Origin: Streptomyces sp. CB02980
GTDB taxonomy: Bacteria; Actinomycetota; Actinomycetes; Streptomycetales; Streptomycetaceae
NCBI RefSeq assembly: GCF_014451325.2
Contig: NZ_JACSCH020000015.1
Coordinates: 1 to 64,000 of the forward strand
DNA: 64,000 nt
Direction: 5' to 3'
Part shown: in pieces, positions 8,446 through 40,133 of the stretch
How the letters are laid out: each line of letters starts with the position of its first letter
Position numbering within the stretch: position 1 is the stretch's first letter
Made by a program: the position numbers and the translations under genes
Notes under the pieces: generated by a model
What the model was told of the DNA's origin: nothing
The model's input: the letters and a program-made list of their open reading frames with translations, nothing else
Databases searched by the model: none

Positions 8446-8875
8446 GGGGTGATGGTAGTCCGCACGGGTGGGGGGTCGGGGCATGATCCACGGGGATGGA
8501 GGGAACCCTGGGGATCTTGTGGGTATCTTGCACATGACCTTCGAATGACCCTGTGCGGTTGCACCCTCACCTGTGATCCATCTCTCAAGTCCTTTCATAT
8601 CCGGCACTGTCGTGTCGTATGGTGGCTCGACGTCTGTAGCGGTAATCGGGGACCTTTGGCCAGCTTCGCGCGCCAAGGTCCTCTTTCTGCGTGAGGTCGG
8701 CTCAGCCGAACCTTGAGGACAGTGAATGACCTGTGGGCCGGGTCCCGGGACGCGACAACGCATCTCCCGGGGCGTGGATCCCGGCGGAGTCCACTCCGAA
8801 TTCCGCCGGTGCCGGCCTCCCCCACCGGGCGCATCACGCTCACAAGGCGCGCGTCCCGACAGAGCAAGGATCGAC
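8446..8875. other. 430-base intergenic region: divergent promoters and long leader of the peptide transporter
   Basis: No conserved gene is seen. A hairpin at 8650-8681 (GGACCTTTGGC against GCCAAGGTCC, one bulged T) is followed by TCTTTCTG, which looks like an intrinsic terminator or attenuator on the plus strand. A second small stem (CGGC-TCA-GCCG) follows near 8700. A 49-codon reading frame (8545-8694, Cys-rich) runs through the hairpin; I do not call it a gene. Confidence 0.5.
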
Positions 8876-10396
8876 ATGGCGTCCAGCCTGACGAAGGACT
8901 CGGCCGAACCCCTCGGCTACGAGAAGACCTTCCTCGGCCACCCCCGTGGTCTGGCCACTCTCTTCATGACCGAGATGTGGGAGCGCTTCTCCTACTACGG
9001 CATGAGGGCCCTTCTCGTTCTGTACCTGGTCTCCGGCGGCGTGGACGCCGCGACGGGCAGCCAGGGCGGCGGCCTCGCGATGACCGCGGCGACGGCGACG
9101 GCGATCTACTCCGTCTACGTCTCGATGGTCTACCTGATGGCCATGCCCGGCGGCTGGTTCGGCGACCGTGTCTGGGGCGCCCGCAAGACCGTCGCGATCG
9201 CGGCCTCCGTGATCATGCTCGGCCATGTCTCGCTGGCCATCCCCGGCCAGGCGATGTTCTTCGTCGGTCTCGCGCTCGTCGCGGTCGGCTCCGGCCTCCT
9301 GAAGGCCAACATCTCGACGATGGTCGGCCACCTCTACAAGGGCGCGGACGACCCGCGCCGTGACGGTGGCTTCACGCTCTTCTACATCGGCATCAACCTC
9401 GGCGCGTTCTTCGCCCCGCTGGTCATCGGCACCGTCGGCGAGAAGATCAACTGGCACCTCGGCTTCGCCCTCGCCGCCATCGGCATGGGCCTCGGCCTCG
9501 CCGTCTTCCTGATCTTCAGCAAGACGCTGAACCCGAAGAGCAGCGAGGTCCCGAACCCGCTGTCCGCCGCGGAGCGCAAGGCCGTCATCACCAAGGTCGC
9601 CGTCGGCGCCGTCCTGATCGCCGCCTTCTACGGCGCCGTCGTCGCCATGGGCATGTACACCCTGAACTGGGCGATGGTCCCGATCACCCTCGCGGGCCTG
9701 ATCATCCCGGTCGCCGTCCTGGCGCGCATCAAGCGCGACAAGGACCTCGACTCGAGCGAGAAGTCGCGGGTGACCGGCTACATCTGGTTCTTCGTCGCCG
9801 CCGCCATCTTCTGGATGATCTACGACCAGGGCGGCTCGACGCTGTCGCTGTTCGCCGACGCCAAGACCGCCGACACGATCTTCGGCCTCGGCTTCCCCGC
9901 CACCTGGTACCAGTCGCTGAACCCGCTGTTCGTGATGGCGCTCGCCCCGGTCTTCGCCTGGCTGTGGCTGTGGCTGGCCCGGAAGAACCAGGAGCCGAAC
10001 ACCATCGTGAAGTTCGCGATGGGTCTGGTCCTCGTCGGCGCCTCGTTCTTCGTCTTCATCGTCCCGATGAACATGGCGGGCGACGGCACCAAGGTCTCCC
10101 CGATGTGGCTGGTCACGATCTACATGATCCAGACCATCGGTGAGCTGTGCCTCTCCCCCGTCGGCCTCTCCGTCACCACGAAGATGGCGCCGAAGAAGTA
10201 CGCCTCCCAGATGATGGGCGTCTGGTTCCTCGCCGTCACCGCCGGTGACTGCACCACGGGTCTGCTCTCCATCGCGGGCGTGGACCTGAACGGGACAGGG
10301 ATCATCGCCATGCAGGCGACGCTCGCCGTCGCGGCGGGCTTCGCGATCTACATGTACCGCAAGAAGGTCCAGGGGCTCATGGGCAGCGTCCACTGA
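8876..10396 (+). CDS. POT/PTR2-family proton-coupled oligopeptide transporter
   Basis: A 506-residue polytopic symporter importing di/tripeptides with protons. The family signature TEMWERFSYYGMRALLVLYL is near residue 30 and carries the ExxER proton-coupling motif. It is followed by GGWFGDRVWGARK (loop 2-3 signature) and the PTR2 motif FYIGINLGAF; about 14 transmembrane segments are visible. ATG at 8876 has AAGGA five bases upstream. The long leader (8700-8875) with hairpins suggests post-initiation control. It is the last gene before a strong bidirectional terminator. Confidence 0.92.
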   Translation: MASSLTKDSAEPLGYEKTFLGHPRGLATLFMTEMWERFSYYGMRALLVLYLVSGGVDAATGSQGGGLAMTAATATAIYSVYVSMVYLMAMPGGWFGDRVWGARKTVAIAASVIMLGHVSLAIPGQAMFFVGLALVAVGSGLLKANISTMVGHLYKGADDPRRDGGFTLFYIGINLGAFFAPLVIGTVGEKINWHLGFALAAIGMGLGLAVFLIFSKTLNPKSSEVPNPLSAAERKAVITKVAVGAVLIAAFYGAVVAMGMYTLNWAMVPITLAGLIIPVAVLARIKRDKDLDSSEKSRVTGYIWFFVAAAIFWMIYDQGGSTLSLFADAKTADTIFGLGFPATWYQSLNPLFVMALAPVFAWLWLWLARKNQEPNTIVKFAMGLVLVGASFFVFIVPMNMAGDGTKVSPMWLVTIYMIQTIGELCLSPVGLSVTTKMAPKKYASQMMGVWFLAVTAGDCTTGLLSIAGVDLNGTGIIAMQATLAVAAGFAIYMYRKKVQGLMGSVH

Positions 10397-10414
10397 CCTC
10401 CCCCGTACGGCCGT

Positions 10415-10449
10415 GAGGGCCGCCGCACCGATCCGGTGCGGCGGCCCTC
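10415..10449. terminator. Bidirectional terminator (16-bp perfect stem)
   Basis: GAGGGCCGCCGCACCG pairs perfectly with its complement across a three-base loop, between the convergent peptide-transporter gene and the LAETG surface-protein gene. Confidence 0.88.
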
Positions 10450-10468
10450 CGCCGTTTCCGGCCCCGCG

Positions 10469-11965
10469 TCAGCGCCTGAGGCGCGCCCACGGGGTGAAGG
10501 TGAACACGGCGCCGCCGAGCAGGATCACCGTGCCGGCGACGAGGGCGAGGGCGCGCAGGGCGCCGTCGTCCTCGGCGCCGGTCTCCGCGAGGTTCCCGCC
10601 GTCGGAGCCGCCGGAGCCGGAACCGCTCCCGCTGCCGGAGCCCGAGCCGCTGCCCGAGCCCGAGCCGTTGCCGTCGCCGCCCGAGGCGCCGCCCGCCTGC
10701 TTGCTCGTGTCCAGTTCGAGGGAGGCCTGGACGGCGCCCTTCACCTGGCACGGGATGTCCATCCCCGAGCTGCCGAGGGTGACCTTGATGGTCAGCGTGC
10801 CGGGGCTGAGCGTGGACTTACCGGTCGCTCCGGGCTTGTACGTGCCCTTCATGTCCGGCAGGTTCACCGGGTCGCCCAGCTTCAGCGCGGTGGGGTTCGG
10901 GGGTCCCGAGACGTTCACCGTGCCGCTGTCGGATCCGCCGATCTTGATTGCCATGGAGGCCTTGAGGGCTCCCTTGGGGAGGGCGGCGGGGCTGTTCATG
11001 ACGCCCTTGGCCGTCCTGACCGTGAGGTCGTACACACCGCCGTTCTTCTTGGCGTCGATCGTCACCTTGGAGTTGATCGGGTCCGGGCCGGGGGCCTGAC
11101 AGCCGAACGTGACGGAGACCTCCTTGCCGGGGAAGGACGTCTCGCCGCCGCCACCGCCGCTCGCACCGCCGCTGGAGGATCCGCCGGAGGCCGAGCCGGA
11201 ACCCGAGCCGGAGGATCCGCCGGAGGTCGATCCGGAGCCCGAGCCGCCGGATCCGCCGGAGGACGAGGTCGAGGAGCCGCCGGTGTTGTTAGAGCCGCCG
11301 CCGGTCGTGGTCGAGCCGCCCGTGGTGCTGCCGCTCGCGTTGCCGCCCGACGTCGTCGTCGTACCGCCGGTGGTCGTCGTGGACCCGCCGTTCGTGCCGC
11401 CCGTCGTCGTACCGCCGCCACCGGCCGTGACCTTGATCGTGGCCGCGACCGGCACCGTCTCCTTCGGGGCGCACTTCGTGTCCGTCGACAGCGGCTTGGA
11501 CACGTTGATCGTGTACTTGTCGGGGGTGAGGGTGATCTCACCCGCCGCCGTCAGCTTCAGCTTCCCCTTCATCTCGGGCAGCACCATCGGGCTGTTCTTG
11601 GGGATCGGCGGGTTCTTCCGGGGACCCTCCATCGCGACGGTGCCGCTCCCCGCGCCGCCCACGGTGAGGACGCCGGTCGGCTTGACCGTGTCCGCGCCGA
11701 GGTCGAGCACGTCGGGGTTCTTCGAAGCGGCCTGGACCGTCTTCCAGACGATCTCGACCTCGTCGCCGACCTTGGCCTCCGCCGGTGCCGTGATCAGCAC
11801 CTTCGTCGTGCCCTGCACGGGCGGAAGCCCGGAGATGGACGGCGGGATGCACTCCGTCTTGTACGAGACCTCGGCGGCCTGGGCGGGGCCGGCGGAAATC
11901 ATGATCCCCGCGCCGCCGAGCATCAGCGCGACGCCGGCCGCGCTCATCCTCCGTTGCGTACTCAC
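10469..11965 (-). CDS. Secreted two-domain surface protein with LAETG sortase signal
   Basis: 498 residues. A signal peptide ends at about AGPAQAA (residue 31). Two copies of one beta-rich domain (about 32-175 and 285-420) are separated by a roughly 100-residue Gly/Ser/Thr linker rich in TTGG and GSGS. A second SG-repeat stalk precedes the sorting signal: LAETG at 459-463, a hydrophobic helix and the tail RLRR. LAXTG is the motif recognised by class E sortases of high-GC Gram-positives, so it is probably linked to the cell wall. Both domains share the motif GGxxSGTVxVxGPxN with the LPKTG protein of the same operon. GTG at 11965 overlaps the previous stop (GTGA). No known ligand; function unrecognised. 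Confidence 0.82.
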   Translation of the reverse strand: MSTQRRMSAAGVALMLGGAGIMISAGPAQAAEVSYKTECIPPSISGLPPVQGTTKVLITAPAEAKVGDEVEIVWKTVQAASKNPDVLDLGADTVKPTGVLTVGGAGSGTVAMEGPRKNPPIPKNSPMVLPEMKGKLKLTAAGEITLTPDKYTINVSKPLSTDTKCAPKETVPVAATIKVTAGGGGTTTGGTNGGSTTTTGGTTTTSGGNASGSTTGGSTTTGGGSNNTGGSSTSSSGGSGGSGSGSTSGGSSGSGSGSASGGSSSGGASGGGGGETSFPGKEVSVTFGCQAPGPDPINSKVTIDAKKNGGVYDLTVRTAKGVMNSPAALPKGALKASMAIKIGGSDSGTVNVSGPPNPTALKLGDPVNLPDMKGTYKPGATGKSTLSPGTLTIKVTLGSSGMDIPCQVKGAVQASLELDTSKQAGGASGGDGNGSGSGSGSGSGSGSGSGSGGSDGGNLAETGAEDDGALRALALVAGTVILLGGAVFTFTPWARLRR

Positions 11966-13032
11966 GCATGTCCCTTCGTCGTCGGGCTGCTCTCTGGGGC
12001 TGACGGTGCGGAGTCAGGACTGAACCACGGCAGGACCGCGGTCGGTTCGTCGTCCCCCGGACCCCGGAGCGCGGAGTCGCGCGCCGGGTCGGGGGCACGT
12101 GTGCGGAGCCGGGCCAGGGGCGCGGTCCGGGGCCGCGCCCGGGGCCTGGGCCGGGGCCGGGCGGGGCCCGTCGCCGGGCGGACGCGGTCCACCACGGCCA
12201 TCCCGATCCGGAACAGCGCCGCCGGGACGACCACGGCGAGCAGCAGCCAGAAGAGCGTCACGCCCCAGGGCCTGCCGACCCCCCACGGTTGCTCGACCAG
12301 GACCTTTCCCGCGTACCGCACGGAGACCTGGTAGTCGCCGTGCGCGCCCGCCGTCAGTTCGACGGGGAGCCGGACGAGGGCCTTCCTGCCGGGGGCGATC
12401 GTGCCGCGCCACTGCCGTTCCTCGTACTGCGGGGCGAACACGCCGTGGCTGGAGCCGACCTGGAAGACCGGGTCCTTCACGGGGGCGGAGCCGAGGTTGC
12501 CGACGGTGAAGACGACCTCGCGGCTCGGCGGCGCCCCGAACCAGGTGAGGAGGCCGCTGGAGCCGTCGAGGCGTACGGCGGCGAGGACGGCGAGCCGGCC
12601 GTCGCCCGAGGCCTCGGGGAGCGGTGCGACGGGATGCCCGGCGACGGTGAACTCCCGGTCGACGGCGTCTGGTTGGCCGGTCACCCCAGCGACGTGCACC
12701 ACGCAGGGGCAGGGCTTGGGCGGTTCGGCGACCGGGAGTTTCGCGCTGAAGCCGCCCCGGGCGTCGACGGTGGCGGCCCGGCCCTCGGTGTTGGCGCAGG
12801 AGTTGGTGCCGCCGATGACGCCCTTGTCGGGCGCGGCCTGGCCGCAGATCAGCAGCATGAGCAGCGCGCCCGGTTTCCAGCCGCTGCCGCTGACGGTGAC
12901 CTCGCCGCCCTTGCCGCCCTCCGCCTGGGAGAGCTCGACGGCGGGGCCGGGGGCCGCGACGGCGGGGGCGGCCGGGAGGAGACCGAGGCCGAGCACGGTC
13001 ACGAACGCCGCAGCTGTACGCATCCACCTCAT
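11962..13032 (-). CDS. Secreted, membrane-anchored protein with immunoglobulin-like domain
   Basis: 356 residues. A signal peptide (residues 1-27, cleavage near APAVAA) is followed by an Ig/IPT-like domain (about 30-130; VTVSGSGWKPGALLMLLICGQ and four Cys in two pairs: CGQ, NSCANT, PCPC). A second beta domain follows (about 150-250, GNLGSAPVKDPVFQVG). A transmembrane helix at about 262-285 leads into a cytoplasmic Arg/Pro-rich tail of some 70 residues. ATG at 13032 overlaps the upstream stop (ATGA), and its own stop overlaps the LAETG gene. It is the only operon member with a substantial cytoplasmic tail, so it might couple the surface proteins to the cell interior; that is inference. Confidence 0.75.
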   Translation of the reverse strand: MRWMRTAAAFVTVLGLGLLPAAPAVAAPGPAVELSQAEGGKGGEVTVSGSGWKPGALLMLLICGQAAPDKGVIGGTNSCANTEGRAATVDARGGFSAKLPVAEPPKPCPCVVHVAGVTGQPDAVDREFTVAGHPVAPLPEASGDGRLAVLAAVRLDGSSGLLTWFGAPPSREVVFTVGNLGSAPVKDPVFQVGSSHGVFAPQYEERQWRGTIAPGRKALVRLPVELTAGAHGDYQVSVRYAGKVLVEQPWGVGRPWGVTLFWLLLAVVVPAALFRIGMAVVDRVRPATGPARPRPRPRARPRTAPLARLRTRAPDPARDSALRGPGDDEPTAVLPWFSPDSAPSAPESSPTTKGHA

Positions 13033-13952
13033 GTGTTCGCTCCCGCCGGGGCTCGCCTGGTACGGGACCTGCCGCGCCGCCGTACCGCGTGACCGCCGCC
13101 GCCCGCCGCGAGCAGCAGCAGTCCGGCCGCCCCGGCGAGCACCGGGCCCGAGGCGAAGGAGGCCTCGGCGCGGGCGGTGGCCGGGGCCGCGCCGGCGGCG
13201 GTGGCGGTCAGCCGGACGGTGACGGAGTCGAGGGCCGGCGGGTCGGGCCAGGCTTCGGTACGGGTGGCCCGCTGACCGGGCTTCAGGGTGAGCGGCAGGG
13301 GCCGGCCCGGCCGGTCGAGGACGGTGCCGAGGACGCCTTCGGCGCGCACCGCGAGGTGCGGGGCGAGGACGGTGGTGCCCCGGTTGACCAGGGTGTAGCG
13401 GAGGGCGCCGGTCTCGGTGTCGACGTGGACGTCCTCGACGGTGAGCGCGGCGAGCCGGGGGCCGCTGACCCGCAGCCGCAGGTCGACGCGTATCTCCCGG
13501 CCGGCCGCCGAGGCCCGTACCGCCCCCCGGTGTTCGCCGGGCGGGGTGTCCGCGGTGACGGTCACGGCGAACGGCACGTCCGCCCGGGTCCTGGCGGGCA
13601 CGGTCACCGTCCGGGCGGCGAAGGACACCGGTGCGCCCTGCCCGCTGAGCCGTACCGTGAGCGGCCGGGCGCCCGGATTGGTCAGCGACAGGGTGTCCTG
13701 GAGGACGCTCCCGGCCGGGCCCTCCAGATAGGCGTACGGCCGCCCGGCGGCGGGCGCCGCCGACCAGGAGACCGGGGCGTCGGAGGAAGCCGCGGCCCGG
13801 ACGCCGGAGGGGGCCGCGGCTCTGGCGTCGGCGAAAGCCGCGGCCCGGACGCCGGAGGGGGCCGCGGCCCAGGCGCCCGAAGGCGCCGCCGCGACCGCGC
13901 CGACGAGGGCGGTCGCGACGGCCACGAACCCGGTGCGTGCCGCCGTCCGCAT
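13029..13952 (-). CDS. Secreted DUF916/WxL-interacting-like membrane protein
   Basis: 307 residues with an N-terminal signal peptide, an Ala/Pro repeat segment, then two beta-sandwich domains. PYAYLEGPAGSVLQDTLSL near residue 70 and VSFAARTVTVPARTRADVPF resemble the peptidoglycan-binding half of DUF916/WxL-interacting proteins. A C-terminal helix (VLAGAAGLLLLAAGG) with a basic tail anchors it. In Firmicutes such proteins hold WxL surface proteins to the wall. The ATG at 13952 overlaps the upstream stop by one base (TGATG). The family call is by motif resemblance only and needs a profile search. Confidence 0.65.
   Translation of the reverse strand: MRTAARTGFVAVATALVGAVAAAPSGAWAAAPSGVRAAAFADARAAAPSGVRAAASSDAPVSWSAAPAAGRPYAYLEGPAGSVLQDTLSLTNPGARPLTVRLSGQGAPVSFAARTVTVPARTRADVPFAVTVTADTPPGEHRGAVRASAAGREIRVDLRLRVSGPRLAALTVEDVHVDTETGALRYTLVNRGTTVLAPHLAVRAEGVLGTVLDRPGRPLPLTLKPGQRATRTEAWPDPPALDSVTVRLTATAAGAAPATARAEASFASGPVLAGAAGLLLLAAGGGGHAVRRRGRSRTRRAPAGANT
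13787..13868. repeat. Exact 34-bp direct repeat inside the DUF916-like gene
   Basis: Identical 34-base copies at 13787-13820 and 13835-13868, offset 48 bases, so in frame. They encode the duplicated peptide APSGVRAAA in the linker after the signal peptide. This is a likely site of slippage or length polymorphism. Confidence 0.85.
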
Positions 13953-14656
13953 CAGCGAGCCGTGCGCCGCGTGAGCCAGAGGACTCCGGCCGCGCCGGTG
14001 AGGAGGACGGTGCCGCCGAGGGTGCCGAGGGCCACGGCGGAGTCGAGCGGGCCGGTCTTGGGCAGTTCGGCGCCCGTGTTCTCCTCGTCGTCGCCCTCGT
14101 CGGCGGGCGGCGGGGTGTCGGAGCCGCCGGAGAGCCCCGTCACCTCCAGTTCGAGGGAGGGCTTGGGGTTGTTCTTCGGGGTGCAGACGGCCGCGTCCAT
14201 GCCGAGCGCGTGCACGGTCAGCGTCCCGGCCGTGAAGGTGACCTTGCCGTTCTTCTTCGGGGTGTACGTGCCCGTGAGCGTGCCGATCCTGATCGGGGTG
14301 TCGGGCGGGATGGCGGCCGTGTTCGGCGTTCCCTTGACCTTGACGGTGCCGGAGTCGGCACCGCCGAGGACGAGGTCGGCGCGCGGCGTCATGACGCCTT
14401 TGGGCAGCTCGACGGGGCTGTCGGAGACGCCCTTCTCGAACGACATGGTGATCGTGTACGCGCTGCCGTTCTTGACGGCCTTGATGTCGACGGGCGAGAC
14501 GGCACCCTTGGGCCCGATCTTCGTCTCACAGGCGTAGTTGACGTCGACGACGGCCGCCTGGGCGGCCGGCGCGCCGGCGAGCACGGCCGCGCCCGCCACC
14601 GCGACCGCCGCCGTGAGCGCGGCGGTCGTTCTCCTCCGGTTCGGCTCCTTGGACAC
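13952..14656 (-). CDS. Secreted surface protein with LPKTG sortase signal
   Basis: 234 residues: signal peptide, one copy of the beta domain also found twice in the LAETG protein (GGADSGTVKVKGTPN motif), an acidic spacer, then LPKTG at 198-202, a hydrophobic helix and tail RRTAR. This is a standard cell-wall sorting signal. I chose GTG at 14656 because GAGGGG is eight bases upstream; the GTG at 14665 directly abuts that site. It is the first gene of a four-gene operon with overlaps of 1, 4 and 4 bases. No sortase gene is in the window, so a housekeeping sortase elsewhere would be needed. Having both LPKTG and LAETG in one operon is notable. Confidence 0.82.
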   Translation of the reverse strand: MSKEPNRRRTTAALTAAVAVAGAAVLAGAPAAQAAVVDVNYACETKIGPKGAVSPVDIKAVKNGSAYTITMSFEKGVSDSPVELPKGVMTPRADLVLGGADSGTVKVKGTPNTAAIPPDTPIRIGTLTGTYTPKKNGKVTFTAGTLTVHALGMDAAVCTPKNNPKPSLELEVTGLSGGSDTPPPADEGDDEENTGAELPKTGPLDSAVALGTLGGTVLLTGAAGVLWLTRRTAR

Positions 14657-14680
14657 CCCGAGCACCCCTCACCGCAATGA

Positions 14681-14709
14681 AACTGACGGTCTTTCAGATT
14701 GGGCGTCAA
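14681..14709 (-). promoter_or_regulatory. Candidate promoter of the surface-protein operon
   Basis: On the minus strand, TTGACG (14709-14704) and TCAGTT (14686-14681) are separated by 17 bases. This places a start site near 14674 and leaves a short leader that contains GAGGGG. The -10 is a weak match. Confidence 0.5.
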
Positions 14710-14756
14710 GGTACGCCCGGGGCCTTGCGGAGGGAAGAAGAGGGACGGTGAAAGTC

Positions 14757-15176
14757 CTAGGCGGGTGCGGAGAGTTCGGCCCAGACCGTCTTTCCGGGGG
14801 CTCCGGGGGTGCGCTCGATGCCCCAGTCGAGGCAGAGCCGCTGCACGATGAACATGCCGTGGCCGCCCGGGCGCCCCGACCGGTGCGGGGTGCGGGGCGC
14901 GGGAGCTCCGGCGCCCCGGTCGGTGACTTCGAGGCGCAGGGCCTTGGGCAGCCGCAGGACGCGGAGGCGTTCGGGGCCCTCGGCGTGCAGACAGGCGTTG
15001 GTGACGAGCTCGGAGACGACGAGCAGGACGTCCTCCGCGGCGGCCCTGCGGTCGGCGGTGGCGGCCGGCAGCCAGCCCCACTCGTGGAGCGCGGACCGTG
15101 TGAAGTCACGGGCCAGCGGCACGGTGCCGCTGGTCTCGCCGAGGGCGAGCGTACGGACGTCGGAAGCTTGGTCCAT
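14757..15176 (-). CDS. Anti-sigma factor-type serine kinase (RsbW/HATPase_c_2)
   Basis: 139 residues with a GHKL ATPase fold: N-box VVSELVTNACLHA, G1 EVTDRGAGAP and G2 GRPGGHGMFIVQRL. Such proteins bind and inhibit sigma-B/F-type factors and phosphorylate a STAS antagonist to switch partners. It lies 89 bases downstream of a STAS gene and near a divergent sigma-B/F-type sigma factor, which fits a complete partner-switching set. Many Streptomyces carry dozens of free-standing homologues, so cross-talk is possible. From memory this layout resembles the sigI/arsI/prsI locus of S. coelicolor; not verified. Confidence 0.82.
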   Translation of the reverse strand: MDQASDVRTLALGETSGTVPLARDFTRSALHEWGWLPAATADRRAAAEDVLLVVSELVTNACLHAEGPERLRVLRLPKALRLEVTDRGAGAPAPRTPHRSGRPGGHGMFIVQRLCLDWGIERTPGAPGKTVWAELSAPA

Positions 15177-15265
15177 CAGCGCTTCACCTCACCGATCGAC
15201 GGGACAGAGGGCAGGACGTACGGGCGGTACGGGGCCGGGTCGTGGAGGCGGGCCCGGCCGGGGGG

Positions 15266-15634
15266 TCAGCCGGGCAGGGCTGTGGCGAGTGTCTCGTGCA
15301 CCGTGAAGACGGCCTCCGCGCCCGTGATGTGGAACACCCGGGCCACTGCGGGCCGCATCCCCACGAGATGGACGCCACCGCCGGCGGCGTCCGCCCTCAG
15401 CCGGGCGCCGAGGAGCACGTTGAGCCCGGTCGAGTCGCAGAACTCCAGGCCCGAGCAGTCGACGACGAGTCGCGAACGGCCCGCGTCCAGTGCCTGGTCC
15501 AGGGGGGAACGCAGCAGTTCGGCGGTGTAGTGATCGAGCTCACCCACCGGAGCCAGGAGTTCGGTCCGGTCCACGGTCCGGACCTCGACCCGCAACCGCG
15601 CGGGCGGTGCGCTGCCGATGCTCTCGCGGTCCAT
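15266..15634 (-). CDS. STAS-domain anti-sigma factor antagonist
   Basis: 122 residues, a single STAS domain with the phosphorylation-site motif LVVDCSGLEFCDSTGLNVLL; the acceptor is expected at the Ser or Thr of CDSTGL. Unphosphorylated, it would sequester the anti-sigma kinase and free the sigma factor. ATG at 15634 has AGAGG seven bases upstream. It is probably co-transcribed with the kinase gene downstream and is divergent from the sigma factor across 221 bases. That shared region contains CTTGTAGGGTTCG, reminiscent of but not matching a clear GGGTAN -10 of sigma-B-like promoters. Confidence 0.88.
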   Translation of the reverse strand: MDRESIGSAPPARLRVEVRTVDRTELLAPVGELDHYTAELLRSPLDQALDAGRSRLVVDCSGLEFCDSTGLNVLLGARLRADAAGGGVHLVGMRPAVARVFHITGAEAVFTVHETLATALPG

Positions 15635-15855
15635 GGCCGTGCCTCTTCTCGCTCTCGCGGATGCCGACTGACGTGCCTCGAACCCTACAAGCGGGGCGCC
15701 CTCCGATGCACACGAGGTCCACCACATAACGGGACAAAGCGGATTATCGATACTTGCGGCCTTCGCCGTCGAGCAGGTAGGGCTAGTAGGGAACACCCGA
15801 CACGACCGGCTTCGGAGGCGCCGCAAACCGCAGCAAAGACCCACGAAGGAGACCC

Positions 15856-16794
15856 ATGTCACCCCGGCTCGACGCCCCGCGTACCCCCGACGCGCCGTCG
15901 GCAGCAGTCCCCCTGGACCATCCGCTCGACCACCTTGCCGAGCTCTCCCACGAGCTCCCGCACGCACTCCCGCACGACCGGGCGCTCACGCTCCCGTTCG
16001 ACCGGCCGCTCGACGACATCGGACCGGTCGACGCGCGCGCCCTGTCGAAGCAGCTCTTCGCCCGGCTCGCCGAGCTCGAAGAGGGCACCCACGACCACGC
16101 GTACGTCCGCAACACGCTCGTCGAACTCAACCTGGCCCTGGTCAGGTTCGCCGCCGCCCGGTTCGGCACCCGCAGCGAGCCGATGGAGGACATCGTCCAG
16201 GTCGGCACCATCGGCCTCATCAAGGCGATCGACCGCTTCGAGCTCACCCGCGGCGTGGAGTTCCCCACCTTCGCGATGCCCACGATCATCGGCGAGATCA
16301 AGCGCTTCTTCCGCGACACCTCGTGGTCCGTGCACGTGCCGCGCAGGCTCCAGGAGCTGCGGCTCGACCTCGCCAAGGCGGGCGACACCCTCTCCCAGCG
16401 CCTCGACCGCGCGCCGACCGTCGCCGAACTCGCCGCGGAACTCGGCATCGCGCCGGAGGAGGTCGTCGAGGGCATGGCCGCGAGCAACGCGTACACCGCG
16501 AGCTCGCTCGACGCGCAGCCCGACGAGGAGGAGGGCCCCGGCGGCGAGGCCACGCTCGCCGACCGGCTGGGCTACGAGGACCACGGCCTCACCGGGATCG
16601 AGTACATCGCCTCCCTGAAGCCGATGATCGCCTCGCTGCCCGCCCGCGAGCGGCACATCCTCTCCCTCCGCTTCGTCTCCGGCATGACCCAGTCGGAGAT
16701 CGGCATCGAGCTCGGCATCTCGCAGATGCACGTGTCCCGGCTGCTCGCCCGCACCCTCGCGAGGCTGCGCCGGGGGCTCACTCTGGAGGAATGA
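15856..16794 (+). CDS. RNA polymerase sigma factor, SigB/SigF/SigG family
   Basis: 312 residues. Region 2 (EDIVQVGTIGLIKAIDRF, then GVEFPTFAMPTIIGEIKRFFRD) and region 3 (VHVPRRLQELRLDL) are conserved. Region 4 ends with TQSEIGIELGISQMHVSRLL. ATG at 15856 follows AAGGAG at the ideal distance. A roughly 50-residue unconserved Pro/His/Leu-rich N-terminus precedes the core, and there is an acidic insert (DEEEGPGGE) between regions 3 and 4. The divergent STAS and anti-sigma genes are its likely controllers. It probably directs a stress or developmental regulon; the regulon is not visible here. Confidence 0.92.
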   Translation: MSPRLDAPRTPDAPSAAVPLDHPLDHLAELSHELPHALPHDRALTLPFDRPLDDIGPVDARALSKQLFARLAELEEGTHDHAYVRNTLVELNLALVRFAAARFGTRSEPMEDIVQVGTIGLIKAIDRFELTRGVEFPTFAMPTIIGEIKRFFRDTSWSVHVPRRLQELRLDLAKAGDTLSQRLDRAPTVAELAAELGIAPEEVVEGMAASNAYTASSLDAQPDEEEGPGGEATLADRLGYEDHGLTGIEYIASLKPMIASLPARERHILSLRFVSGMTQSEIGIELGISQMHVSRLLARTLARLRRGLTLEE

Positions 16795-16828
16795 CCTCCA
16801 CCGGCTTCCCCGAGCCGCCAAAATGGCT

Positions 16829-16877
16829 GCGGAAAGGGCCCGTTCACGGTCTTTCGACCCGTGACGGGCCCTTCCGC
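16829..16877 (+). terminator. Terminator downstream of the sigma factor gene
   Basis: Long stem GCGGAA..GGGCCCG..TCACGG against CCGTGA..CGGGCCC..TTCCGC with single-base bulges and loop TCTTTCGAC, 35 bases after the sigma factor stop. Confidence 0.75.
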
Positions 16878-16997
16878 ATGCCGCGTCCCGAGCCACTCCC
16901 GCGGTCGCTCGCGCGACCAACCGCGCGACCGGGACGCCTTGTTGACGCGGCGTCCGGAATGGGCCACATTGAGCCCCGGGGTTCAGGGGGGAATCAC

Positions 16998-18224
16998 ATG
17001 TTTTCTGCGTACGCGGAACTGGAAGAACGCATGCGCGGCCGGCTCGGGGGCAGGGAGTGCCTCTACGTGCCGTCGTGCCGCTTCGGGCTCTACCTCGCGC
17101 TGCGGCACTGGTGCCGGCCCGGCGGCAAGGTGCTGATGTCACCGGTCAACGACGACGTCATCTTCTTCGTCGTCCTGGCCGCCGGGCTCCGCCCCGTCCA
17201 GGCACCGCTCGACCCCCGGGACGGCTCGATCGACACGGCCGCCGTGCCCGAGTCCGTCTGGCGGGACCTCTCCGCCGTCCTCACCACCAATCTGTACGGG
17301 AACCCCGACCCGGTTCCCGAGCTGCGGGGCCACTGCGACCGGCTCGGCATCCCGCTGATCGAGGACGCGGCCCACGCGATCGGCTCCACCGCCGGCGGGC
17401 GCCCGGTCGGCACGTACGGCGAGGCGTCCGTCTTCAGCCTCTCGAAGCACACCGGCGCCAAGACCGGCGGCTTCCTGACCCTCGCCGACCCGGCGCTGCG
17501 CGAGGAACTCGCCGCCGCCCGCGAGGCCTTGCTGCACCCGACCCGCCCCACCGCCGAACTCGCCCACCTGGTACGGCCCTACGCCGAGTCCACCCTGCGC
17601 GGACTGCGCCTGGTCGGGGCCGCGCGGGCGGCCGTCCGGCGGCTCGGCCTCGAGGAACGGGAGGAGATCCGGATGCCGCTCCGCGCCGGGGAGCTGACCC
17701 GGGCCCTCACGGCGGCGCCCGCACTCGAACCCTTCCACTCCTGGGTCCGGGTCGACATGCACGACTACCGGCTGCGGCCCGGCGCCGGCCGGCTCCGCCG
17801 CACCACCCGCAGGTTCGCCCGGCTCGACGACGTCCTCGACGCCCACCGGGCGGGCACCGCCCTGCTCCTGGCCGGCGAGTACGGCACGGCGGAGGTGTTC
17901 CCGGGCGGCGTGCCGGAGGAGCCCCCGACCGGCACGCCGCCGCAGCCGCTCTACCGGGTTCCGCTGCTCGTCGACGACCGGGACGCGGCCGTCGCCGCCC
18001 TCGCCCGGCGCCGGATCACCACCGGCTATCTCTACGACCCGCCGCTCGACAGCTACGCGGGAGAGGCCTTCACGGACCCCTCCCCCGCGCCGGAACCGGC
18101 CGCCTGGTTCGCCCGGCACGCCCTGCCGGTGGACCCGCGCCGGGCGGCCGAGGCCCTCGCGGTACTGCGCGGCGCCGGGATCCGCCCGGCGCGCCCGTCG
18201 ATGGTCCCCGGCGGGTCACGGTGA
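16998..18224 (+). CDS. DegT/DnrJ/EryC1/StrS-family PLP aminotransferase-like protein
   Basis: 408 residues. The fold-type I PLP core is recognisable: IEDAAHAIGS with the ring-stacking Asp123, and FSLSKHTGAKTGGF with the probable Schiff-base Lys150. The family transaminates nucleotide-linked keto-sugars for deoxy-amino sugars in surface polysaccharides or antibiotics. It is somewhat divergent (the usual GEGG is AKTGG), so substrate and even activity are uncertain. ATG at 16998 has GGGGGGAA five bases upstream. Its stop overlaps the next start (GTGA), tying it to the flippase gene. It opens the polysaccharide cluster. Confidence 0.8.
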   Translation: MFSAYAELEERMRGRLGGRECLYVPSCRFGLYLALRHWCRPGGKVLMSPVNDDVIFFVVLAAGLRPVQAPLDPRDGSIDTAAVPESVWRDLSAVLTTNLYGNPDPVPELRGHCDRLGIPLIEDAAHAIGSTAGGRPVGTYGEASVFSLSKHTGAKTGGFLTLADPALREELAAAREALLHPTRPTAELAHLVRPYAESTLRGLRLVGAARAAVRRLGLEEREEIRMPLRAGELTRALTAAPALEPFHSWVRVDMHDYRLRPGAGRLRRTTRRFARLDDVLDAHRAGTALLLAGEYGTAEVFPGGVPEEPPTGTPPQPLYRVPLLVDDRDAAVAALARRRITTGYLYDPPLDSYAGEAFTDPSPAPEPAAWFARHALPVDPRRAAEALAVLRGAGIRPARPSMVPGGSR

Positions 18225-20416
18225 CGGAGACGGTACGGCTGCGGGGGTCCGACCGGGACGACGCGGCAGGCACGGCTGGCACGGCGAACTGCGCACCGGC
18301 GTCGGCCGGGGCGAAGGACGGCAAGGGGCCGGGCTCCGACTCGCGCTCGGGCTCACGCCCCGACTCGGGAGCCGACTCGGGCTCCGACTCCGCCGAAAAC
18401 TCCATGTTCCGCAACGCCTATGCCCTGATGCTCTCCACCGGCGTCTCGGCCGCCCTCGGGCTCGGCTTCTGGCTGATCGCCGCCCGCTACTACTCGGAGG
18501 AGGCCGTCGGCCAGGGCTCCGCCGCCATCGCCGCACAGCGGATGCTCGCCTCGATCACGGCGACCACCCTGTCCGGCGCGGTCGTCCGGTACGTGCCGCG
18601 GGCCGGCCGCGCCACCGGCCCGCTGGTCGTGCGCCTGTACCTGTTCAGCACGGTCGTCGTCGCCGTGGCCTGCGGGATCTTCCTGCTCACCCTCGACCTG
18701 TGGGGGCCCTCGTACGCCCCGCTCGGCACCGTCTCCGCCGGGATCTTCTTCACCGCGTCCGCGGTCGGCTGGGCCCTGCTCACCCTCCAGGACGGAGTGC
18801 TCACCGGGCTGAGACGCGCGATCTGGGTCCCCGTCGGCAACGCCGTCTTCTCGCTCGGCAAGCTCGTCCTGCTCGTCCTCCTGGCGACCGCCGTGCCGAT
18901 CCTCGGCGTCTTCGTCTCCTGGGCGGCGGCGATCGTGCTCTCCGTCCTGCCGCTGGGCTGGCTCGTGTTCCGCCGCCTCATCCCCCAGCAGGCCCGTGCC
19001 GACCGGGACCGCGAGCCGCCGAGCATGCGGGAGATCGGCCGGTTCATCGCCGGGGACTCCGTCGGCGCCTTCTTCAGCCTCATCATGATCAGCCTGCTGC
19101 CGGTGATGGTCGCCGTCCGCTTCGACGCCGCCCACAACGCCTTCTTCTACACGGCGTACACCGTCGGCGGCACCATGGAGTTCATGGCCATCAACATGGC
19201 CTCCTCGCTCACCGCGCACGCCTCGCACAGCCCCGAGTCCCTCGCCGAGGGGGTGCGGGGCGCGCTGCGCCGCATGGTGCTGCTGCTCGTCCCCGTCGTC
19301 CTCGTCCTCGTCGTCTTCGCGCCGCTGATCCTGGCCCCCTTCGGCCAGGGCTACCAGGACAACGGCTCCACCGTGCTGCGGCTCCTCGCCGCCGCGGCAC
19401 TGCCCCGGGTCGCCGTCGAGCTCTACATCGGCGTGCTGCGGGTCCAGGGCCGTACGGGCATGCTCGCCGTCCTCCAGGGCGCCATGTGCGTCCTCGTGCT
19501 CGGCAGCGCGGCCGTGCTGCTCGGCCCGTACGGCATCAGCGGGGCAGGGATCGCCGTCCTCGGCGCGATGACCCTGATGGCGGTGGCCTGCGTGCCGGGC
19601 CTGCGGGCCACCCTCAAGGGCCGGACACCGGCCGAGCGCCCCCGGGCGGCGGCCCGGGTGAAGGAGCGCGAGGAGGACGGGTACGGCACCAACTGGGCGC
19701 GGGAGAGCGCCTATCTGCGGGGCGCGCACGAGTCGGTGACGCCGGCCTTCGGCATCCCGGTGTACGTGCCCCGGCAGCGTGACGACGAGCCCGCGGGCCC
19801 GCTCGCACGGCCCCTGCCGCCCCCGGCGTCCCGGCCCGAGACGCCGGACGCGCCCGACCGTTGGGGGACCTGGCTGTGGCCGGCGCTCGGCCTGGCGGCC
19901 GGTCTCTTCTGGTTCCCGCTCGCCCGGTCCGGCGAGCTGGACGTGGCGACGCTGTCCGGCACCGGACTGCTCGCCGCGCTGCCCCCGGTCACCCTCCTCG
20001 CCGGCCTGCTCCTGGTCGCCCTCCAGGGCGCGGCCGTCGGACTCCGCTTCTTCCGGCCCGCGTTCGCCGGGGCGGTCCTGCTCGCCACCTTCCTGGCCCT
20101 GCACACGGCGCCGCCGCTGCTCGGCCTGCGGCCGGCCGACGCGGCGGGTCCCGGGGCGACGCTCCTGGGCGAAGGCGTCGAGCGGGCGGTCGTCCCGATC
20201 GCGCTGCAGGCGCTGAGCCTGCTCCTGACGGCCGTGCTGCTGCGGGTGGTCGGGGTGGGCGCGCGGGTCACGGCCGGTGTGGTGTGGGTCCTGGTCTGGG
20301 CGGGCTGGGCGGGTCAGCAGGCCTTCGCCACCGCCCCGCTCCCGCTCTTCCTGGGCCTGGCCGGCGGCACGATGGCGGTGTGCGCCTTCCGGGGCCTGAC
20401 GTCGGGGCGCCGCTGA
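18221..20416 (+). CDS. Wzx/MATE-like polysaccharide flippase with extra C-terminal membrane domain
   Basis: 731 residues. Residues 1-60 are disordered and Ser/Gly/Asp-rich (SGSDS-type repeats). Residues about 64-470 hold 12 or so helices of the polysaccharide-transporter superfamily; ALGLGFWLIAARYYSEEAVGQ is the typical first helix and substrate loop. A roughly 90-residue hydrophilic linker follows, then a second hydrophobic block (about 548-728) with four to five helices that I do not recognise. It presumably flips a lipid-linked glycan made by the neighbouring enzymes. GTG at 18221 overlaps the aminotransferase stop (GTGA). The C-terminal module has no assigned function and may be a fusion. 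Confidence 0.8.
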   Translation: MTETVRLRGSDRDDAAGTAGTANCAPASAGAKDGKGPGSDSRSGSRPDSGADSGSDSAENSMFRNAYALMLSTGVSAALGLGFWLIAARYYSEEAVGQGSAAIAAQRMLASITATTLSGAVVRYVPRAGRATGPLVVRLYLFSTVVVAVACGIFLLTLDLWGPSYAPLGTVSAGIFFTASAVGWALLTLQDGVLTGLRRAIWVPVGNAVFSLGKLVLLVLLATAVPILGVFVSWAAAIVLSVLPLGWLVFRRLIPQQARADRDREPPSMREIGRFIAGDSVGAFFSLIMISLLPVMVAVRFDAAHNAFFYTAYTVGGTMEFMAINMASSLTAHASHSPESLAEGVRGALRRMVLLLVPVVLVLVVFAPLILAPFGQGYQDNGSTVLRLLAAAALPRVAVELYIGVLRVQGRTGMLAVLQGAMCVLVLGSAAVLLGPYGISGAGIAVLGAMTLMAVACVPGLRATLKGRTPAERPRAAARVKEREEDGYGTNWARESAYLRGAHESVTPAFGIPVYVPRQRDDEPAGPLARPLPPPASRPETPDAPDRWGTWLWPALGLAAGLFWFPLARSGELDVATLSGTGLLAALPPVTLLAGLLLVALQGAAVGLRFFRPAFAGAVLLATFLALHTAPPLLGLRPADAAGPGATLLGEGVERAVVPIALQALSLLLTAVLLRVVGVGARVTAGVVWVLVWAGWAGQQAFATAPLPLFLGLAGGTMAVCAFRGLTSGRR

Positions 20417-38028: not shown

Positions 38029-38421
38029 GTGCCCGGAATCGACGAGTGCCTTCTGGAGGCCATGGCCCTGCCGGGCGCTCGCGGGGCCTCCCTGGTCGAC
38101 TGGACCAGCGGGCTCGCCCTCGGGACGGCGGGTGACTCACCGGTCGGCGACCATGAGACGACGGCCGCCGAGACCGCCGAACTCGCGCGCGCCGCCGCCG
38201 AGTTCGACTCGTTCGCGGCCGCCGGGGAGGACCCCGGCGGCGAACCGCCCGTCGAGGACCTGATCGTCACCACCCGCGCCGGCTACCACGTCCTGCGCTT
38301 CGTCGAGACGTCCTTCGACAGCAGCGTCTTCCTCCACCTCTGGCTCGACCGCGACACCGGCAACCTCGCCCTCGCCCGCATACGCCTCCGCGACCTCGCC
38401 GAACGGCTGGTCCTGGGATGA
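38029..38421 (+). CDS. MglB/roadblock-like small protein (operon member 1)
   Basis: 130 residues. It shares blocks with the last protein of the operon (39762): GARGASLVDWTSGLALGT against GAIGAALVDYTSGMALGT, VEDLIVTTRAGYHVLRF against IEDILITLGTHYHLIRL, and FLHLWLDRDTGNLALARIRL against FLYLALSKDRANLAMARHQL. An Ala/Glu-rich insert separates the halves. It resembles roadblock/LC7 (MglB-type) folds that dimerise and act on small GTPases, but no GTPase is encoded nearby. GTG at 38029 follows GGGAGGGGA. Its stop overlaps the next start (ATGA). Confidence 0.7.
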   Translation: MPGIDECLLEAMALPGARGASLVDWTSGLALGTAGDSPVGDHETTAAETAELARAAAEFDSFAAAGEDPGGEPPVEDLIVTTRAGYHVLRFVETSFDSSVFLHLWLDRDTGNLALARIRLRDLAERLVLG

Positions 38422-39212
38422 GCGCGCCCGGAGCGACCGCCGTCGCCACCCCCGTCTCCCCGATGCTGGTCCGGCTCGCCGCCGAGAAGGCCACCGGCGC
38501 CCTGCTCCGCGACCACGGCACGCTCTACCTCGTCGACGGCCGCGTCGTGCACGCCGAGAGCCCCGCCGCCCCCGGCGTCGACGTCCTCCTCACCACCGGC
38601 GGACGGCTGCCCCGCGAGGGCTGGGACGAGGCCGTCGACCGGGCCGGCGCCCACCGCGCCGTCGGCCGCTTCCTCGTCGACAGCGGCCGGCTCCACGACG
38701 GCGAGCTGGAGATCTGCCACCTCGGCGCCGTCTTCGACGCGGCCTTCTTCGCTCTCTCCCCCACCAGCGGACCGACCCGCTTCCGGTACGGGGTGGGGCA
38801 CTGGTTCGGGACGGTGCGGCCGGTGTCGGCCGAGGCGGTCGAGCGCGAGACGGTACGCCGCCGTGAACTCCTCGACGCCGTCTGGCCGTACGCCGCCGTG
38901 GACGCCTCCCCCGTCGTGCCGCGCCGCGCCGCCCCCGGCCAGACCGTGGGGGCGCGCCAGCGGGCCCTGCTCGCCGTCGCGGACGGACAGCGGACCCCGG
39001 CGGAGCTCGCCCTGGTGCTCGGCCGCCCCGCCTTCCACACCCTCCTCGACGTCCGGCGGCTCGCGGCCGCCGGGCTCGTCGAGACGCCGCTCGACCCCAC
39101 CCCCGTACCGCTGCCACCGCCCTTGCCTGCCCTGTTACCGGCTCTGCCGGTGGCCGATCCCGACATCGCCCTGCTGCGCCGGCTCCGTGACGCCCTGGAG
39201 GCACACCTGTGA
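38418..39212 (+). CDS. PATAN/DUF4388-like regulatory protein with winged-helix region and TTA codon
   Basis: 264 residues. The N-terminal part (about 12-130) resembles the PATAN/DUF4388 domain: KATGALLRDHGTLYLVDGR, VHAESPAAPGVDVLL and GRFLVDSGRLHDGELE. A helix-turn-helix-like segment (ARQRALLAVADGQRTPAELA, LLDVRRLAAAGLVETPL) follows at about 175-225. A Pro/Leu-rich stretch holds a TTA leucine codon at 39135-39137 (residue 240), dependent on the bldA tRNA for efficient translation. It overlaps both neighbours (ATGA, GTGA). It probably scaffolds or regulates the two roadblock-like partners; no enzymatic motif is seen. Confidence 0.7.
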   Translation: MSAPGATAVATPVSPMLVRLAAEKATGALLRDHGTLYLVDGRVVHAESPAAPGVDVLLTTGGRLPREGWDEAVDRAGAHRAVGRFLVDSGRLHDGELEICHLGAVFDAAFFALSPTSGPTRFRYGVGHWFGTVRPVSAEAVERETVRRRELLDAVWPYAAVDASPVVPRRAAPGQTVGARQRALLAVADGQRTPAELALVLGRPAFHTLLDVRRLAAAGLVETPLDPTPVPLPPPLPALLPALPVADPDIALLRRLRDALEAHL

Positions 39213-39253
39213 TGAGGCGTGCCCTGCGCCTGCGCGCCGAAAGGAAACAGCTC

Positions 39254-39646
39254 ATGACGGCAGAAGCCGAGGTCCTCGGCGAGCTCAGACGGCTGCGGGC
39301 CCGGCTGCCCCAGCTGACCGGAGCGCTCGCGGCCAGTGCCGACGGGCTCGTCCTGGCCCACGACACCGTGGACGGCGAGGCGGAGAGCGTGGCCGCGCTG
39401 ACCGCGGCGGCGCTCGGCGTCGGCCAGCGACTGACCGACAGCACCGGCCAGGGCCGGTTCCGGGAGCTGCTGGTACGCGGCGAGAACGGCTACGTGGCGA
39501 CGTACGCGGCGGGCGGCTCGGCCGTCCTGACGCTGCTCGCCGAGCCCCGGATCAACGTCGGGCGGCTCCATCTGGAGGCCCGCAGGTCCAGCGTCCGGAT
39601 AGGCGAACTCGTCGACGGCGCGCTGGAGCGCAGAGACCTGAACTGA
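39254..39646 (+). CDS. Roadblock/LC7-domain protein (operon member 3)
   Basis: 130 residues from the ATG at 39254, preceded by AAAGGAAA six to eight bases upstream. An in-frame GTG at 39209 overlapping the previous stop (GTGA) would add 15 basic residues; both starts are possible. Fold markers: LPQLTGALAASADGLVLAHD (typical first strand of roadblock proteins), SVAALTAAALGVGQRL, and RGENGYVATYAAGGSAVLTLLAEPRINVGRL-type strands (GYVATYAAGGSAVLTLLAE). In Streptomyces conservons a roadblock protein (CvnB) works with a kinase-like CvnA and GTPase CvnD; neither is present here. Confidence 0.8.
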   Translation: MTAEAEVLGELRRLRARLPQLTGALAASADGLVLAHDTVDGEAESVAALTAAALGVGQRLTDSTGQGRFRELLVRGENGYVATYAAGGSAVLTLLAEPRINVGRLHLEARRSSVRIGELVDGALERRDLN

Positions 39647-39653
39647 CGCACCG

Positions 39654-39733
39654 CACCACAAGAAACACCACGAAGAAGCACCACGACAAGCACCACGAGA
39701 AGCACCACGCAGAACGAGCACCACGCAGAAGAC
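39654..39733. repeat. Degenerate CACCACGA(A)/(C)AAG tandem repeat upstream of the last roadblock gene
   Basis: Six CACCAC boxes at 39654, 39666, 39679, 39691, 39703 and 39719, spaced 12, 13, 12, 12 and 16 bases. They fill the gap between operon members 3 and 4, and the region is A/C-rich compared with its surroundings. It could be a variable spacer or a leader structure for 39762. Confidence 0.7.
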
Positions 39734-39761
39734 CCGTACACGAAAAGGAAGTGCGACACCC

Positions 39762-40133
39762 ATGGCGAACACCGAGACCTCCCTCAAGGAAGCGGCCTCC
39801 ATCGAAGGCGCCATCGGCGCTGCCCTCGTCGACTACACCAGCGGCATGGCGCTCGGCACGATCGGCGGCGGCAAGGAGCTCGACCTCAACGTCGCCGCGG
39901 CCGGCAACACCGACGTCGTCCGGGCCAAGGTCCGGGCGATGGAGATGCTGGGGCTCAACGACGAGATCGAGGACATCCTGATCACCCTCGGGACCCACTA
40001 CCACCTGATCCGGCTGCTGAAGGGGCGCGGCACCAACGGCCTCTTCCTCTACCTGGCCCTGTCCAAGGACCGGGCGAACCTGGCGATGGCCCGCCACCAG
40101 CTGAAGAAGATCGAGGCCGAGCTGGAGGTCTGA
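39762..40133 (+). CDS. MglB/roadblock-like small protein (operon member 4)
   Basis: 123 residues, paralogue of the 38029 product (shared blocks given there). IEGAIGAALVDYTSGMALGT and MEMLGLNDEIEDILITLG are its most distinctive parts. ATG at 39762 has AAAAGGAAG upstream. The separation from gene 3 by 115 repeat-rich bases and its own strong ribosome site suggest it can be translated independently of the TTA-containing gene. Convergent with the RpiR regulator, 22 bases apart. Confidence 0.72.
   Translation: MANTETSLKEAASIEGAIGAALVDYTSGMALGTIGGGKELDLNVAAAGNTDVVRAKVRAMEMLGLNDEIEDILITLGTHYHLIRLLKGRGTNGLFLYLALSKDRANLAMARHQLKKIEAELEV

Follow-up and report, generated by a model that had tools for sequence, protein, structure and literature searches.

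A conserved four-gene roadblock/PATAN operon without its own GTPase gene in Streptomyces and its possible relation to CvnD-type GTPases

The window analysed here, a stretch of 64,000 nucleotides from Streptomyces sp. CB02980 (genome of 9.07 Mb in 85 contigs), is the start of contig C10 (NZ_JACSCH020000015.1) and carries at positions 38029-40133 an operon of four small forward-strand genes, P1 to P4, which encode roadblock, PATAN and winged-helix domains and are accompanied by no GTPase gene. P1 (38029..38421, GTG start) encodes a divergent roadblock protein of 130 amino acids (aa), a paralogue of P4. P2 (38418..39212) encodes 264 aa, with a DUF4388/PATAN domain at approximately residues 14-150 followed by a winged helix and C-terminal helix at approximately 160-264 that resemble the conservon protein CvnC. 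P3 (39254..39646), starting with ATG downstream of AAAGGA, encodes a canonical MglB-type roadblock protein of 130 aa; an alternative longer frame has a GTG start at 39209. P4 (39762..40133) encodes a divergent roadblock protein of 123 aa, the most widespread of the four. These open frames are those given in a preliminary description of the locus, which also called the first three genes overlapping or coupled. The overlap exists between P1 and P2 (four bases, ATGA), but P2 and P3 are 41 bases apart. Among 77 relatives with all four genes, in which start codons were picked by script, the P1-P2 overlap was four bases in 64 and one base in 5 (1-4 bases in 69 altogether), the P2-P3 gap ranged from 38 to 193 bases with no overlap in any, and the P3-P4 gap, 115 bases in the window, ranged from 6 to 206.

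When each gene was compared with its counterparts in five relatives (20 comparisons), the ratio of non-synonymous to synonymous substitution (dN/dS, Nei-Gojobori-type) was 0.05-0.43, so P1 to P4 are genes on which purifying selection acts. Much of the P3-P4 gap is occupied by five copies of a 12-base tandem repeat, GCACCACGAGAA (39653-39714). This repeat is not a conserved element, because at least three CACCACG copies were found in just 2 of the 77 relatives.

Three of the four products are roadblock proteins of unequal divergence. P3 matched Robl_LC7 with 66.1 bits, over the Pfam cut-off of 23, and in the PDB its profile matched an archaeal roadblock protein (7f8m), CvnB5 (3leq) and MglB. 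P1 reached 14.4 bits with the same family, under the cut-off, and is 36% identical to P4 across 119 aa (E 1e-22). P4 had no Pfam match, and 5 of the 79 rows of the P4/P1 alignment matched Robl_LC7 at E ≤ 0.1. The AlphaFold2 model of P4, built from 79 sequences, had a predicted local distance difference test score (pLDDT) of 89.8, and its top Foldseek match was MglC (7ct3, E 3.7e-6), with MglB, Ragulator and an S. avermitilis roadblock protein at 4e-6 to 2e-5. In total, 91 PDB chains were matched at E ≤ 0.001, and the matches listed were nearly all MglB, MglC, roadblock, p14/MP1 or Ragulator/LAMTOR proteins. P4 is thus predicted by its model to adopt the roadblock fold. The P3 profile matched neither P1 nor the P4/P1 alignment (0.1%; the alignments were thin), so the fold common to P3 and P1/P4 rests on the structure model. 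Two paralogous MglB-like proteins beside one canonical roadblock protein is what the preliminary description had read from the sequence. CvnF was considered as an identity for P4 and rejected, since CvnF proteins are GAF-domain proteins according to passages of PMC13343842.

P2 scored 19 bits with DUF4388, under the Pfam cut-off of 25, while 47 of the 54 members of the P2 alignment matched this family at E ≤ 0.1 (best 5.9e-6). Compared as a profile with a set of four DUF4388-type proteins, P2 matched at 98.9% (E 3.6e-17) over 207 columns covering both PATAN domain and winged helix, and its N-terminal part alone at 97.0%; two proteins of the set were scanned and both were over the DUF4388 cut-off (50.5 and 84.8 bits). 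By these profile matches, the N-terminal half of P2 is a divergent DUF4388/PATAN domain, and the early reading of P2 as a PATAN/DUF4388-like protein with a helix-turn-helix segment holds. Structure prediction, which had been put forward as a check, supported the winged helix of P2 as well as the roadblock fold of P4, but not the PATAN part. The AlphaFold2 model of P2 had a pLDDT of 88.5 and no Foldseek match in the PDB at E ≤ 0.001; a second structural comparison returned mainly winged helices, at residues ~153-225, of which the best belonged to a chain from the KICSTOR-GATOR1 complex; its Z of 8.2 is also reached by unrelated folds. The PATAN part had no structural match, which is no evidence of a new fold. 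DUF742 was matched by 8 of the 54 alignment members, with a best E of 0.005 that is level with a generic winged-helix model.

The C-terminus of P2 matched eight CvnC proteins at 83.7% (E 8e-6; 74 columns, 28% identity) across the winged helix and the final helix, and at 93.7% when the four DUF4388 proteins were added to P2. Its hhalign score against CvnC was 37.0, compared with 21.5 for the best of 61 other clusters and 12.5 for an ArsR control; the control clusters came from the same loci, those of more than 600 residues being skipped, and 62 of 65 were scored, one being P2 itself. The link is nevertheless moderate, because a hidden Markov model of the eight CvnC proteins did not separate P2 from background, which profile-profile comparison alone achieved, and because the C-termini of the four DUF4388 proteins, which come from outside Streptomyces, gave a weak match with CvnC when compared alone (9.7%). 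The winged helix invites a reading in which the operon is a transcriptional or effector module, P2 binding DNA or RNA polymerase, the roadblock proteins only gating it and any GTPase history being irrelevant today. This is in line with the high confidence of the predicted winged helix, with HTH_47, a winged-helix model matched by 8 of the 54 alignment members, and with the DNA binding suggested for CvnC proteins in passages of PMC8510531. However, winged helices also mediate protein contacts, the KICSTOR-GATOR1 chain being the best match here, and no conserved flanking gene hints at a regulon, and we regard a transcriptional or effector module of this kind as improbable.

The four genes travel together. 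Relatives of the window genome that carry names are almost all Streptomyces, and the comparison covered 80 loci, the best from 562 relatives; all 80 are close (80-98% in P4). P1, P2 and P3 lie within 3.2 kb of P4, in the order P1-P2-P3-P4, in 77 of these 80 loci; in two of the remainder (L099 and L124) a contig end truncates the locus, and the third (L120) holds a P4 with an ArsR-type gene. Moreover, in at least 13 of 65 loci examined the set sits between flanks without a match to the neighbours in the window (L074, L081, L084, L091, L102, L107, L109, L122, L126, L129, L134, L173 and L212). Given the joint retention, the P1-P2 overlap and the persistence when flanks change, the four genes form a unit. 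The neighbourhood survey that the preliminary description had proposed, with failure to stay together as the result that would count against it, thus came out the opposite way. Conserved flanking genes were rejected as a clue to function, the flanks of the window being inherited synteny that differs in other lineages.

With regard to spread, 168 of 197 genomes from the order had a P2 match, and the P4 family (P1 or solitary copies counted) was matched in 131 of 150 genomes of the genus and 76 of 296 genomes of the class. In this class sample, strong P2 matches (E < 1e-20) occurred in 40 genomes, all of which also have P4, and 43 of the 45 strong P2 places lie within 3 kb of P4. The two exceptions belong to a second Streptomyces P2-P3 pair (L267 and L268), which is followed by a gene (L267 6469-6882, L268 4298-4726) for a protein of 137-142 aa that looks roadblock-like by eye; the L267 copy had no Pfam match.

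Several variants of the set were also observed. In L192 (G171:C1:852100-872000) a variant cassette at 8773-18675 has P4 divergent from P1-P2-P3; Pfam places an ECF-type sigma/zinc-finger gene pair, presumably sigR/rsrA, on one side of it and, on the other, genes for an HD-domain protein, a peptide deformylase and a terpene synthase, the last of which we take to be epi-isozizaene synthase. A second Streptomyces P4 copy, apart from P1-P3 and with an ArsR-type regulator gene nearby, was seen in L120, L191, L196-L198 and L207-L209. The regulator gene, identified by Pfam for the L191 copy, is directly downstream of P4 where the order was examined, and an ArsR-type gene lies near P4 at 9 places. In L246 (8696-9580, 294 aa, no Pfam match) and L251 a second P2-like protein is encoded on the opposite side of P4, which is thus flanked by two P2-type genes. 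Tandem P4-P4 pairs occur in L247 and L253, which belong to a single family (f57) whose genomes have five P4 places each. Two P2 matches (G377:C4:4000-4713 and G465:C5:431598-432293) have one TAA within the matched frame.

No GTPase or kinase gene accompanies the operon, as had been noted beforehand. None of the six neighbouring proteins scanned in the window is a GTPase or kinase, and the window contig gave no CvnD-type match with either PF03029 or A5, a GTPase profile of eight sequences (150 of 166 and 150 of 187 first candidates were scored). Across the host genome there are nine CvnD-type GTPases and 11 roadblock genes, one of which is split, so that the genes fall at 12 places. A CvnD-type GTPase lies within approximately 1.2 kb of 10 of the 11 roadblock genes, the sole exception being P3, and the roadblock gene that each of the nine GTPases adjoins is never P3. 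Profile A5, made from GTPases of other actinobacteria, added only two weak matches in this genome, inside frames of 832 and 1044 residues. In 20 further P4-bearing genomes, 119 roadblock places were over the cut-off; a PF03029 GTPase lies within 3 kb of 90 of them, a P4 lies near 10, and no place has both. At least four GTPases are present in each of ten P2-bearing genomes tested outside the genus (G354, G361, G419, G429, G456, G561, G568, G582, G694 and G707), as in the host genome (11 of 11).

A CvnD homologue was found in 4 of 121 loci examined, in two as part of a conservon (L191, beside a solitary P4, and L177, beside a P2-P3 pair) and in two next to P4 in the manner described below (L189 and L195). 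Two CvnA queries, taken from L191 and L177, matched nothing but these two loci among those of 140 relatives, a set to which the window does not belong. In L191 the conservon follows the P4/ArsR pair, and one frame of 633 aa combines kinase-like and CvnB-like parts. In a tree of roadblock proteins, nine CvnB rows (eight from the host genome, one from L191) form a clade with support 99/96 that contains no P3, while the P3 proteins of four-gene sets (96/96) and the roadblock proteins of five P4-GTPase cassettes (96/99) form groups of their own. Judged by sequence, two of the four proteins, P3 and the end of P2, appear to echo conservon parts, but the operon is not simply a broken conservon, because P3 does not group with the nine CvnB rows. 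A decayed conservon whose kinase and GTPase genes were deleted could account for an MglB-like P3 and a CvnC-like end of P2, and passages of PMC4316618 describe such decay for some orphan MglBs. Set against this are the position of P3 outside a well-supported CvnB clade, the low dN/dS, the presence of the set in most Streptomyces sampled, the PATAN domain of P2 and the separate history of P4, and we find decay highly improbable.

In other actinobacteria, parts of the same kinds do adjoin a GTPase gene. Three loci (L189, L195 and L243) have a roadblock gene and the gene of a small GTPase, with P-loop and GTPGQ motif, next to a distant P4, which in L189 and L195 is 42% identical to that of the window, and in L249, L257, L258, L260 and L261 a P4-GTPase-roadblock cassette opens with a P4 57-62% identical to that of the window. 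P4 with both a GTPase and a roadblock gene was found at 8 of 61 P4 places in 60 fetched stretches, the roadblock gene being checked in eight fetched loci. For the three P4-linked GTPases scanned, PF03029 was the best Pfam family, with L243 just below the cut-off. An inference from absent CvnD to absent GTPase in small genomes, based on PF03029, was rejected, as the PF03029 search had missed the P4-linked GTPases of L189 and L195. Profile A5, run over 32 P4-bearing genomes (of 198 in one order), found 19 places above 140 bits, of which 17, in 17 genomes, are within 3 kb of P4, whereas none of the 50 CvnD-like places (up to 125.5 bits) in the same genomes is near P4. The eight sequences behind A5 all come from genomes searched again, so this bit-score gap arises partly by construction; once the eight profile-building places are excluded, P4 is still near 9 of the remaining 11 that score high.

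A further GTPase-bearing form involves relatives of P2. In the class sample P2 profile matches were found in 68 genomes, 28 of them with weaker matches only, and the four of these 28 that were fetched, none with a P4 match, all contain roadblock-DUF4388/winged helix-GTPase operons (L263-L266), in which the genes follow the same order as CvnB, CvnC and CvnD. The toolkit thus exists in three arrangements, namely roadblock-P2-GTPase, P4-GTPase-roadblock and P1-P2-P3-P4. Among 141 P4 places in 140 loci, none of the 92 with P2 has a GTPase within 3.2 kb and none of the 8 with a GTPase has P2; these places are not independent, the arrangements follow families, and the exclusivity is confounded with taxonomy.

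The mutual exclusion of P2 and GTPase beside P4 also suits a GTPase-free scaffold or sensor, in which roadblock layers of P4, P1 and P3 would signal or polarise together with P2, and P4 or P1 would replace the GTPase beside P3. Such a role is the main rival in our view, given that some genomes contain a solitary P4 and yielded no GTPase of the superfamily; G527 and G573, moreover, have a solitary P4 and no Robl_LC7 match in a non-exhaustive search, which missed the L195 roadblock gene in G444. On the other hand, the P2-bearing genomes tested all keep at least four GTPases, the fetched loci of the P4 genomes without a GTPase contain no P1, P2 or P3, so that these genomes bear on P4 only, and the exclusivity is confounded as stated above. 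We consider a GTPase-free role possible, if rather unlikely.

The preliminary description had offered action on a distant GTPase or a self-contained scaffold as the two options, and we favour the former, because the same kinds of parts adjoin a GTPase in other actinobacteria. We propose, with about an even chance of being right, that the operon is the regulatory half of a small-GTPase module of the MglA/CvnD type which lost its own GTPase gene and acts in trans on CvnD. CvnD proteins would be the likeliest targets, as CvnD-type proteins are the only GTPases of the superfamily found here and the P2-bearing genomes tested all have several GTPases; for this choice of target the case is likewise finely balanced. 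By analogy with known roadblock systems, in which MglB dimers act on MglA, P3 would form an MglB-type dimer and contact the GTPase, and P1 and P4 may associate with one another, with P3 or with both, in layers like those of MglC and MglB, and so bridge or store P3 dimers. P2 could connect this complex with an output by means of its PATAN domain and CvnC-like winged helix and may serve as effector or exchange partner. The complex would then tune the nucleotide state or placement of at least one of the nine CvnD-type GTPases and join several conservons. Beyond this, the toolkit may have been reshuffled across actinobacteria, with roadblock proteins replacing the GTPase in P1-P2-P3-P4, which would yield a Ras-type signalling complex able to do without its own, or any, GTPase. 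CvnC may, in addition, be a shortened DUF4388-winged helix protein, conservons and this operon then sharing descent from a single roadblock-PATAN-GTPase module in the order B-C-D. We put forward this broader scenario as speculative and doubtful.

Several observations weigh against action in trans on CvnD after the loss of a GTPase gene. P3, being outside the CvnB clade, need not recognise CvnD. The two GTPase-bearing forms and the four-gene set occur in different families, so that the set may have been assembled separately rather than by loss of a GTPase, and the P4 tree requires three changes of GTPase label, two of them forced by well-supported branches. P4 has none of the partners considered here at 20 of the 61 places in the fetched stretches, and 8 of the 32 P4-bearing genomes of the order have no GTPase of the superfamily at E ≤ 1e-10 (one of them, G614, consists of 1060 contigs). 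Finally, 19 of the 119 roadblock places in the 20 further genomes have neither a GTPase nor P4 within 3 kb, and orphan roadblock genes are thus not unique to the four-gene set.

The preliminary description held that conservons and MglA/MglB systems always include a GTPase, which does not hold for MglB: passages of PMC4316618 (Wuichet and Sogaard-Andersen 2014) count 328 of 749 MglB homologues as uncoupled from MglA. The same passages report a small actinobacterial clade of MglB proteins that are all orphans and do not lie near conservon genes, state that none of the orphan MglBs was characterised as of 2014, and, citing Makarova 2006, place PATAN genes near some MglA/MglB genes. The claim that no such system had been described calls for qualification: no description of P1-P2-P3-P4 was among the papers listed in searches of the open-access literature, but orphan actinobacterial MglB and MglB-PATAN proximity were already in print. 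P3 probably belongs to the 2014 group, to which we liken it by description rather than sequence: both are actinobacterial, uncoupled from a GTPase and without conservon flanks. Neither the P1, P2 and P4 partners nor the GTPase-bearing relatives are named in those passages. The operon supplies partners for one orphan MglB group, shows the GTPase family kept by the partners' relatives and is, with four proteins, small enough for reconstitution. Streptomyces conservons control development and specialised metabolism (according to passages and abstracts of the literature), and a trans-acting hub over several CvnD proteins, if true, would alter the reading of conservon systems; the CvnC-DUF4388 similarity also suggests where CvnC, a conservon protein whose function is debated, may have come from.

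Compared with conservons, the operon is likewise actinobacterial and has an MglB-type roadblock protein and, in P2, a winged helix with end helix that may be related to CvnC, but it lacks the CvnA kinase and the CvnD GTPase, its P3 falls outside the CvnB clade, and it adds a PATAN domain and two divergent roadblock proteins. In one conservon, passages of PMC13343842 describe the CvnB protein MfpD as a GTPase-activating protein (GAP) and the CvnC protein MfpC as a likely guanine nucleotide exchange factor. With DUF4388 proteins of the PATAN type the operon shares the N-terminal domain of P2, which differs in being divergent (below the Pfam cut-off) and fused to a CvnC-like winged helix. RomY, a protein of 188 residues, stimulates the GAP activity of MglB (passages of PMC9481161). 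The MglA/MglB/MglC system of Myxococcus resembles the operon in its several roadblock paralogues, with MglC as the top match of the P4 model and MglB aligning with P3, and differs in having an MglA-type GTPase and no counterpart of P2; there, the roadblock protein MglC binds MglB in a 2:4 ratio, an MglC dimer lying between two MglB dimers (PMC7949163).

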